Source: Lactiplantibacillus garii (GTDB taxonomy: Bacteria > Bacillota > Bacilli > Lactobacillales > Lactobacillaceae). From it: 64,000 nt of DNA. The notes beneath the pieces are model-generated. The model ran no database searches, was not told the DNA's origin, and was given only the letters and a program-made list of their open reading frames with translations. This document shows, piece by piece, positions 57,619 through 62,629 of the stretch; the stretch's first letter is position 1; every line of letters begins with the position of its first letter. Both the position numbers and the translations under genes were made by a program. Location of the stretch: positions 1-64,000 of the forward strand of contig NZ_QWZQ01000011.1 of the NCBI RefSeq assembly GCF_003885105.1, written 5' to 3'.

Positions 57619-60228
<2,610 letters not shown>

Positions 60229-60257
60229 AAATCGTAACCTCCTCAAATTCGGTTAGC

Positions 60258-60280
60258 AAAAAGGCAGCTATCCAGCTGCC
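60258..60280 (-). terminator. Terminator-like hairpin in the clpB leader
   Basis: GGCAGCT-GGAT-AGCTGCC is followed by TTTTT on the minus strand. It lies after the predicted clpB start site (about 60303) and before its RBS, so it is either the pepT terminator placed inside the clpB leader or an attenuator. Confidence 0.65.
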
Positions 60281-60287
60281 AATTTTA

Positions 60288-60304
60288 TTTGACCTTTATT
60301 GACT
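60288..60304. promoter_or_regulatory. CtsR-type box 2 at clpB start site
   Basis: Read on the minus strand, AGTCAATAAAGGTCAAA compares with the heptad repeat GGTCAAA-NAN-GGTCAAA; one half is perfect and the other has two mismatches. It covers the predicted transcription start. Confidence 0.5.
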
Positions 60305-60309
60305 ATTGA

Positions 60310-60339
60310 ATTATATAACGGATGGTCAAAGAAGGTCAA
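60310..60339 (-). promoter_or_regulatory. Promoter of clpB
   Basis: TTGACC (60339-60334), 18 bases, then TATAAT (60315-60310) on the minus strand. The -35 lies within CtsR box 1. Confidence 0.6.
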
Positions 60340-60343: not shown

Positions 60344-61582
60344 TTAGTTTTGATTATAATTGTCCGTTACAATTTGCAACACAACGTCCACGGCCTGGGC
60401 CATAACTTGTTCCGAAACGTATTCAAAGCGTCCGTGCATGTTCTCGCCGCCGGCAAACAGGTTGGGCGTCGGTAAGCCCATAAACGAGATCTTTGAGCCG
60501 TCGGTGCCCCCGCGGACGGGGAAGATCAACGGTTTAATATCAAGTTTTAACATGGCCTGCTTGGCCAGTTCAACGACGCCCATGTCCTTTTCAATGACTT
60601 CCCGCATATTGTAATACTGGTCCTTCACGTCAACCTGCACGTACTGGCCACCGTGAGCTAAGTTAACTTGGTCGGCATCCGCGACGATCAAGCGTTTGCG
60701 CGCTTCAAACTTTGCCCGGTCGTGATCCCGAATGATGTAGGTCAACTTGGCCCCGTCAACCGTCCCATCTAACGCGAGTAGGTGGAAGAAGCCTTCACGC
60801 CCCGCCGTTTTTTCCGGAACGTCGTGGGCTGGCAAACCATCTTGAAATTCAACCGCCAGTTGTAACGCGTTGACCATGACGCCCTTAGCCGAACCCGGGT
60901 GCACGTTGACTCCTTTGATGGTGACTTCGGCCTGCGCCGCGTTAAAGGTTTCGTATTCCAGTTGGCCTAACGGACCGCCGTCAACCGTGTAGGCGTAATC
61001 GGCCGCAAACGCGGGCACGTTAAAGTGATCCGCCCCGGTCCCGATTTCTTCATCGGGACCAAATGCAACCCGAATTTTACCGTGTTTAATTTCAGGATGG
61101 GCTAGCAGATATTCCATCGCACTAATAATTTCTGCCACCCCAGACTTATCATCAGAGCCTAATAACGTGTTCCCGTCGGTGGTGATCAAGGTGTGGCCCG
61201 TGTAATTTTTTAAATTAGGAAAAACTTTGGGATCCAACTGATAATCACTTTCACCGAGCGGAATCACCGAATGGCCGTCGTAATTTTCCACGATTTGTGG
61301 GTTAACGTTTTCGGCGTTAAAGTCCGCCGTATCAATGTGGGAAATAAAACCCAGCGTCTTGACCGGTTTATCCGTATTGGCGGGCAGCGTCGCAAATACG
61401 TACGCACTTTGCTGGTCCTGCGTTACGTCGCTTAAACCGACTGCTTCTAACTTCTTCATTAATTGGTTTAAAAAGGCCGTTTCCCGGGGTGACGACGGAA
61501 CCGTCGTGGAATTTTCGTCGGAACGGCTGTTAATTTTAACGAAACTGAGAAAATCTGAAATCAAATGCGGATATTTTGTCAT
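60344..61582 (-). CDS. pepT: Peptidase T (tripeptidase)
   Basis: A zinc aminotripeptidase of the M20 family, releasing the N-terminal residue of tripeptides in the cytoplasm. The 412 residues contain [10 protein letters not shown] with metal-binding His and Asp, [26 protein letters not shown] with the catalytic Glu, and [26 protein letters not shown] near the end. It lies 21 bases after the Nif3-like gene and probably ends at the hairpin in the clpB leader. Confidence 0.95.
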
Positions 61583-61603: not shown

Positions 61604-62629
61604 CTAAATAAAGGTAAACGGATCAGTATTTAATTGGGAGGCTACAAACTCGACTTGCCAGTCATTTTCCGCCTGCCACCGTTTAAAGAGCTGGGTTAAA
61701 TGTGCTTTGCAAATACTTTCCACGTGGTGGCCCGGATCAACCACCGTGAGTCCGGAAGCCAACATGTCGTGCACGGTGTGGTAGTATACGTCACCCGTCA
61801 CGTAAGCTTGCGCTCCCGCTCGAAGCGCATCCGGGTAAAACTTGCCACCGTCGCCACCTAGTACGGCGACCCGTTTGATCACTTGTTGCGGTTCTTGACA
61901 AACGAGCCGTAACCCGTCGACGTGAAAAACGGTCTTACAACGTTTGGCAAAGTCCAGCGCAGTCATTGGTTGCGGCAAATTACCGACCCGCCCCATGCTG
62001 TACTGGTGACCACCAGTTAATAACGGTTCCACTTGGTAGTCCCAGTCATCCCCGGAAACGAAGCGGTTGATGCCCGCAACCGCAGGCTTAACTTGATCAG
62101 CCATCAAGTTAACGGTAAACTGCTCGCCGGAATTAAACGCGTACCGGTTTAGACTAGCGTGCCAAGTCTTGGTTAAATATTCCTGGACCGCTTCCACTTG
62201 GGCGGTCGGCACGGTCACGGTCATTTTAACGGCCGCCTCTTCGTAACCAGCGACTAAACCGGTTACGCCGGTCAATCCCAATTCGGCCGCTAACCAGTCG
62301 TTCATGCCGCCATCCGCGCTGTCCAGGTTGGTGTGGGCCGCGTACACGAGAATGTGATGTGCCGCAATGTCGGCGTACATGGCTTTTTGCGGGTCCTGAT
62401 AATCAAGGTTGTTCGCCGGGTGAAACATGACCGGGTGGTGCGCAAAAATCATGTCCGCCCCAATTTTAACGGCCTCTTGCACGACTTCGGGTCGAACATC
62501 TAACGTGACCAACACCTTATGGATCGCCTGTTTAGGATCCCCAATTTGCAGGCCGCTGGGATCACGATCCCACTTTAATTTCAAAGGTGCAAACCGTTCA
62601 AAACGACTAATTAACTCATTTGCCAACAT
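61604..62629 (-). CDS. Nif3-like dinuclear metal centre protein (YqfO-like)
   Basis: A 341-residue member of the Nif3/DUF34 family, hexameric with a two-metal site; the reaction is not firmly established. The metal motifs are IFAHHPVMFHP and AAHTNLDSADGGMNDWLA in the first half and PGHHVESICK near the end. Between them lies an insert (about 130-230) similar to the PII/CutA-like domain of YqfO. It overlaps trmK by 14 bases, the order trmK-yqfO conserved in Firmicutes. Confidence 0.92.
   Translation of the reverse strand: MLANELISRFERFAPLKLKWDRDPSGLQIGDPKQAIHKVLVTLDVRPEVVQEAVKIGADMIFAHHPVMFHPANNLDYQDPQKAMYADIAAHHILVYAAHTNLDSADGGMNDWLAAELGLTGVTGLVAGYEEAAVKMTVTVPTAQVEAVQEYLTKTWHASLNRYAFNSGEQFTVNLMADQVKPAVAGINRFVSGDDWDYQVEPLLTGGHQYSMGRVGNLPQPMTALDFAKRCKTVFHVDGLRLVCQEPQQVIKRVAVLGGDGGKFYPDALRAGAQAYVTGDVYYHTVHDMLASGLTVVDPGHHVESICKAHLTQLFKRWQAENDWQVEFVASQLNTDPFTFI

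Follow-up and report, generated by a model that had tools for sequence, protein, structure and literature searches.

The hairpin between pepT and clpB

A hairpin followed by a run of T lies between pepT and clpB in Lactiplantibacillus garii, and the question raised by this locus is whose RNA it ends: that of pepT, that of clpB or both. Read along the minus strand, the window (the whole stretch of DNA analysed, 64,000 nucleotides) carries in order a Nif3-like gene (61604..62629, TIGR00486), pepT (60344..61582, stop codon 60346-60344), the predicted clpB promoter, the hairpin, a T5 tract, a Shine-Dalgarno sequence (GAGGAGG, 60244-60238) and clpB (57619..60228, ATG at 60228). The pepT and clpB genes were above the cut-offs of NCBIfam TIGR01882 and TIGR03346, respectively, and the Nif3-like gene and pepT are, judging by their spacing, probably in one transcript. 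The stem-loop (GGCAGCT-GGAT-AGCTGCC, 60280-60263, minus strand) has a 7 bp stem, a 4-base loop and a stem energy of -11.1 kcal/mol at 37°C, and begins 63 nt behind the pepT stop codon. With TTTTT following at 60262-60258, a GC-rich stem stands directly before a T tract, as in an intrinsic terminator, over 60280-60258.

In the window sequence on its own the hairpin would not stand out from chance. Terminator-like sites in 3 kb numbered 9, versus 5.0 (sd 2.3) expected, and folding of the whole clpB leader gave z = -1.56. A chance hairpin was ruled out by its presence in 21/21 genomes of the window's genus (g1). A known Rfam leader was ruled out as well, since all six matches of Rfam families to the locus, with E up to 5, fell below the gathering threshold. 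A repeated terminator sequence of the host genome was also rejected, the exact pattern (loops 2-5) matching this copy only.

The predicted clpB promoter consists of a -35 element TTGACC (60339-60334) and a -10 element TATAAT (60315-60310) on the minus strand, which together hold 11 of 12 consensus letters; genus members have TATAAT, TATACT or TACAAT at the latter. The +1 was predicted at 60303 (minus strand), 7 nt behind the -10 element. Two putative CtsR boxes of the heptad direct-repeat form of the CtsR regulon were found, with 0 and 1 mismatch: box 1, GGTCAAAGAAGGTCAA, on the plus strand over the -35 element (60324..60339), and box 2, AGTCAATAAAGGTCAA, on the minus strand over the predicted +1 and first leader bases (60289..60304). 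Because the CtsR pattern with up to 2 mismatches matched 3 times in the window versus 2.02 by chance, the CtsR claim is carried by position and conservation. The letters of box 2 are mostly invariant in the genus alignment, while for box 1 a search allowing up to 2 mismatches came up empty in some genus members. With the CtsR-controlled promoter placed within the 63 bases that separate the pepT stop from the terminator, the latter would be inside the clpB leader. The stem starts about 23 nt behind the predicted +1, at about +24, and the predicted terminated RNA is about 46 nt long.

The first-pass annotation had reported a hairpin with five T at 60258-60280, and exactly these coordinates were recovered on the minus strand. 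Its placement of the hairpin between the clpB start and RBS is true when "start" is taken as the predicted transcription start (+1 at about 60303). Its claim that clpB RNA must pass the hairpin follows from the predicted promoter position in 21/21 genus members, because the terminator lies behind clpB's own predicted promoter. The comparison of leaders among relatives that it had proposed found the hairpin and T5 kept in all 21 genus genomes, always behind a same-strand pepT.

Over these genomes, 146/147 stem cells paired (1 of 500 shuffles was as high); six of the seven pairs were intact in 21/21, and the loop-adjacent pair failed in one genome. One pair was changed on both sides, C-G in 19 and U-A in 2 genomes, so that the genus alignment contains a stem kept through paired change, although the number of such pairs is weak, with 99 of 500 shuffles as high. 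The loop is variable and TTTTTG invariant; the T tract is modest, T5 and then G, and never longer.

The leader terminator and the pepT neighbour in related bacteria

The clpB start was read in 168 loci: 21 of the genus, 68 of 69 non-genus loci from a 161-genome search (75 genomes matched, 6 of them genus members), and 79 of 80 regions from a 397-genome search (195 matched), picked by genus and not at random among the matches listed. Dropped from the survey were L159, in which no start was found, and L257, which had no clpB start; in a first set of 80 clpB loci, upstream DNA was read for L006-L009 only. pepT was scored as present when on the same strand within 900 bases upstream of clpB, and a CtsR box when matched with up to 2 mismatches.

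By this rule, pepT was upstream in 113/168 loci, and 94 of these had a CtsR box. Among the 94, the only terminator lay behind the box in 83 and in front of it in 8; terminators were on both sides in 1 (L129) and on neither side in 2 (L216 and L222, where a stem was visible by eye with a broken T tract). The figure of 83/94 does not represent 83 independent events, many loci being close relatives, and the pattern rests on six pepT genera (seven with g37). In the 19 loci with pepT in which no CtsR box was found, a terminator was present in 15 and none in 4. Terminators occurred between pepT and clpB in four loci with no CtsR box found, L225 (g14) and L150, L246 and L247 (g23), whose clpB may be reliant on read-through.

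The contrast of loci with and without pepT is the informative one, its counts ignoring kinship. A leader control was run from box to ATG and required a box within 260 bases, which holds for 81 of the 83 "behind" loci and 92 of the 94 loci with pepT and box. Leaders carried a terminator in 82/92 loci with pepT versus 1/29 without (0.5 expected from shuffles). By class, a leader terminator was present in 81/81 "behind" loci, by definition (6.15 expected in shuffles), in 0/8 "in front", in 0/2 "neither" and in 1/1 "both". L109 was counted as lacking pepT though a pepT lies farther up; having no box, it is outside the 29-locus control. The sole exception without pepT was L165, in which the upstream gene, read by eye, ends like Nif3.

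These comparisons indicate that the hairpin in the clpB leader goes with the upstream neighbour or its transcript, not with clpB. Because it tracks the neighbour, it is best read as a putative terminator of the pepT transcript, and the annotation's suggestion that it may end pepT transcripts is thus well supported by the contrast of 82/92 with 1/29. The letters of the hairpin differ between genera. The distance from pepT stop to terminator had medians of 53-70 nt in five of the six "behind" pepT genera (63, 62, 70, 53 and 53.5) and 137.5 nt in the sixth, g34. Exceptions to this spacing argument were five g21 loci of the "in front" class, whose terminators follow the stop by only 5-9 nt. In the three g23 "in front" loci the terminators may serve something else, because 443-579 bases separate pepT and clpB. 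Genus means of the T score were 3.18-4.93 behind versus 3.80-5.03 in front, with overlapping ranges (first 89 loci).

Judged from the sequences, read-through is not always kept out of clpB, as seen in the exceptions g21, g5 and g27. Nine g21 loci without pepT had a CtsR box and no leader terminator. In seven g5 loci and one g27 locus, the upstream gene ends a few dozen bases from clpB with no terminator between (L258-L260 by eye).

Proposed fate of pepT and clpB RNA at the putative terminator

We consider it quite probable that the nif3-pepT transcript ends at this hairpin as its intrinsic terminator, with the CtsR-controlled clpB promoter nested before it and clpB RNA partly terminated. pepT RNA would be released at the T5 tract and read-through kept out of clpB, an exclusion that would protect the tightness of CtsR repression. 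RNA from the clpB promoter would also form the full hairpin and be released in part at about +46; clpB output would be cut by a roughly constant factor, and only RNA reading through would yield ClpB. The position of the hairpin, its conservation and its dependence on the pepT neighbour rest on sequence comparison; what we infer is that RNA is terminated here at all, with what efficiency and to what use, and that the factor is constant. The locus would then show how a repressed heat-shock gene is shielded from its upstream neighbour, and the price of that shielding.

Attenuation of clpB is likely passive and partial. The annotation had proposed attenuation in addition to CtsR repression, which holds up solely as passive partial termination. 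The 12 leaders folded showed nothing that competes with the hairpin, and family members that lack pepT, or have a terminator further upstream, do without the hairpin in most cases.

In E. coli, terminators a few base pairs behind a translated stop codon are repressed and distant ones work: a terminator 28 bp behind the stop codon reached about 90% termination, one 5 bp behind it less than 10%, and the repression was relieved on removing translation (PMC4824070). With the pepT stop 63 nt away and the clpB leader untranslated, both RNAs should therefore meet a working terminator.

The promoter-terminator layout recurs in related lactic acid bacteria, and the arrangement is of a known type. In E. 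coli frd-ampC, the downstream promoter precedes the terminator of the upstream operon, which reportedly sits in the leader of the downstream gene and lowers its output. The present locus is similar in that the predicted clpB promoter precedes pepT's only terminator. It differs in having the promoter between the stop codon and the terminator instead of within coding sequence, and in the control of that promoter by a heat-shock repressor; no growth-rate effect is known. Part of frdD lies within the ampC promoter, which also has an attenuator (PMC11796351). In E. coli, 3' end mapping placed many RNA 3' ends in 5' UTRs (PMC7815308). The clpB terminator, like those of premature termination in E. 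coli 5' UTRs, is in a leader; unlike them, it is tied to a neighbouring gene and not to a known ligand or leader peptide. A literature search of open-licence papers found no paper on a terminator in a clpB leader.

The possibility was considered that polymerase, after ending pepT RNA, restarts at the clpB promoter beside the terminator. Restart in vitro at the nearest promoter, upstream or downstream, has been described for bacterial polymerase (PMC11347151), and the distance between terminator and promoter here is about 45 bp. However, by that paper's own account the process lacks an in vivo demonstration, and CtsR would be expected to block the clpB promoter in unstressed cells, so that recycling of this kind appears very unlikely.

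Returning to termination at a shared hairpin, the fate of clpB's own RNA would depend on where transcription starts relative to the stem. Counted from the predicted +1, the stem began at a median distance of 24 in g1 (23-24; 23 in the window), 19 in g34 (18-20), 7 in g16 (6-17) and 4 in g14 (3-14). L189 was omitted from this geometry for its long insertion. Variable extra DNA of tens to hundreds of bases was observed between the leader terminator and the clpB RBS in eleven g16 loci (L112, L189, L191-L195, L197, L199-L201). The short distances in g14 and g16 fit the alternative that the hairpin is a 5' stem-loop stabilising clpB mRNA, the T tract being incidental. Known 5' stabilisers have the stem close behind +1, as in these two genera. 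This alternative is very unlikely, however, given that T5 is invariant in 21/21 genus genomes and that the hairpin is absent where a terminator precedes the promoter (0/8) and in 28/29 loci without pepT.

In three genera the predicted clpB start falls inside the 5' arm of the stem: g24 (L117, L121, L123-L125, L226-L236), g33 (L132, L137) and g37 (L165). By an energy scan, the stem in all 19/19 loci began before the predicted +1, by 5-8 bases in g24, 9 in g33 and 8 in g37. At every -10-to-+1 spacing from 5 to 9, clpB RNA of these loci would lack at least 2 bases of the stem base, versus 0/64 loci in the other four genera by the same rule. With the predicted start inside the stem, clpB's own RNA should therefore escape the terminator. 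Stem pair 4, whose 5' base precedes +1, was C-G in 10, T-A in 8 and T-G in 1 of the 19. The pattern used for this count left pairs 1-3 little freedom, with most of their letters set in advance, and at pair 4 accepted C or T facing A or G and nothing else; it was matched by all 19 loci, among which only six different arms occur. Conservation of pairs beyond the reach of clpB's own RNA points to read-through RNA as the selected target. The terminators of g24, g33 and g37 seem to stop read-through RNA alone, and the window's genus differs. The three genera can serve as a ready-made comparison, since their terminator should not respond to clpB's own RNA.

Possible regulation of clpB beyond CtsR

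The hairpin might also be a regulated attenuator, with heat or a factor relieving termination; induction of clpB would then combine two steps, release of CtsR and read-through. In L. plantarum WCFS1, clpB (lp_1903) is under CtsR, as predicted for clpB here; its RNA, by our reading of the table, increased 7.01-fold on loss of ctsR at 28°C and 4.24-fold at 40°C (PMC3842655), and ClpB protein was 10.74-fold up in ctsR mutants (PMC3472708). Without ctsR, ClpB protein still rose 2.93-fold on heat, the residual rise being lower for ClpE (1.26) and ClpP (1.65); for such genes the authors suggest a control independent of CtsR (PMC3472708). However, GroES, GroEL and Hsp3 rise more in the same mutant (PMC3472708), other regulators could explain the leftover induction, and the presence of this leader in WCFS1 is presumed. 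Neither regulon paper (PMC3842655, PMC3472708) uses the word "terminator" in its main text. A second, unnamed heat control on clpB would be compatible with the L. plantarum data, and the hairpin is a candidate, simple and open to test, for the heat induction of ClpB that persists there independently of CtsR.

CtsR-like places with up to 1 mismatch numbered 7 in the window's genome versus 3 in a reversed-pattern control. One was the clpB locus and two preceded an ftsH-like (L177) and a clpE-like (L179) gene, names that, like hpt-like below, come from reading the proteins; this pattern gave no hit at clpP, clpC or hsp1. By the rule used for the clpB leader, no terminator was found in the ftsH-like and clpE-like leaders behind the boxes, a result that fits the reading of the hairpin as a pepT terminator; the absence from the clpE-like leader also agrees with a regulated attenuator. 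In L177, the CtsR-like box (1501-1516) lies between the end of an hpt-like gene and the ftsH-like gene, with no terminator behind it or in the 200 bases before.

Folding also bore on heat-relieved termination. Warming from 30 to 42°C weakens the stem energy from -12.4 to -10.1, but in the 12 of 21 leaders folded the stem remained formed from 20 to 48°C (pairing at least 0.97) with no competing or antiterminator fold. Neither an alternative fold nor a leader peptide was found, no conserved leader peptide frame being apparent in the genus alignment as judged by eye. Without a sign of an antiterminator, and with a stem that persists up to 48°C, the folds do not support a regulated switch. With the hairpin also missing from 28/29 leaders without pepT, regulated attenuation is unlikely. 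A broader version would make the start site decide the fate of clpB's own RNA: clpB RNA of g24, g33 and g37 would escape, and in the window's genus the whole hairpin in clpB RNA would be a second, heat-relieved brake, explaining the heat induction left in ctsR mutants. This nested device is likewise improbable.

Furthermore, an RNA thermometer was considered, in which a TAACC/GGTTA helix hides the Shine-Dalgarno sequence with the upstream hairpin as scaffold. TAACC (60251..60255, minus strand) can pair with GGTTA (60239-60235) over the end of the Shine-Dalgarno sequence, a weak lead only. GGTT occurs in the Shine-Dalgarno sequence of 11/13 TAACC genomes and GGTA in that of 4/8 TACC genomes, and the tree requires several switches. 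Predicted Shine-Dalgarno opening rose with heat in L088 (0.36 to 0.66), L100 (0.24 to 0.64) and L103 (0.37 to 0.61); L099 was excluded from these values, the wrong Shine-Dalgarno sequence having been taken, and its pairing was set by hand. Against this, only 3 pairs are kept in five of the 21 genomes and only 2 in one, and opening in the window leader was flat, 0.48 at 20°C to 0.51 at 48°C, so that the site was not hidden in the cold and open in the heat. Some genus members may form a Shine-Dalgarno helix; a thermometer with the hairpin as scaffold is highly improbable.

Another kind of control may act on clpB in two of the surveyed genera. No CtsR box was found in nine g31 loci. A box CGAACRNRYGTTYC, which we take to be the LexA/SOS consensus, was matched with up to 2 mismatches upstream of clpB in 6/7 g34 loci (L128, L134, L139, L146, L238, L239) and 7/9 g31 loci (L135, L149, L156, L157, L240, L241, L263), as well as in L142 (g11). 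Over the 168 clpB loci it occurred in 16 versus 4.7 expected from mononucleotide shuffles, suggesting that clpB may be responsive to DNA damage in the g34 and g31 loci that carry it.
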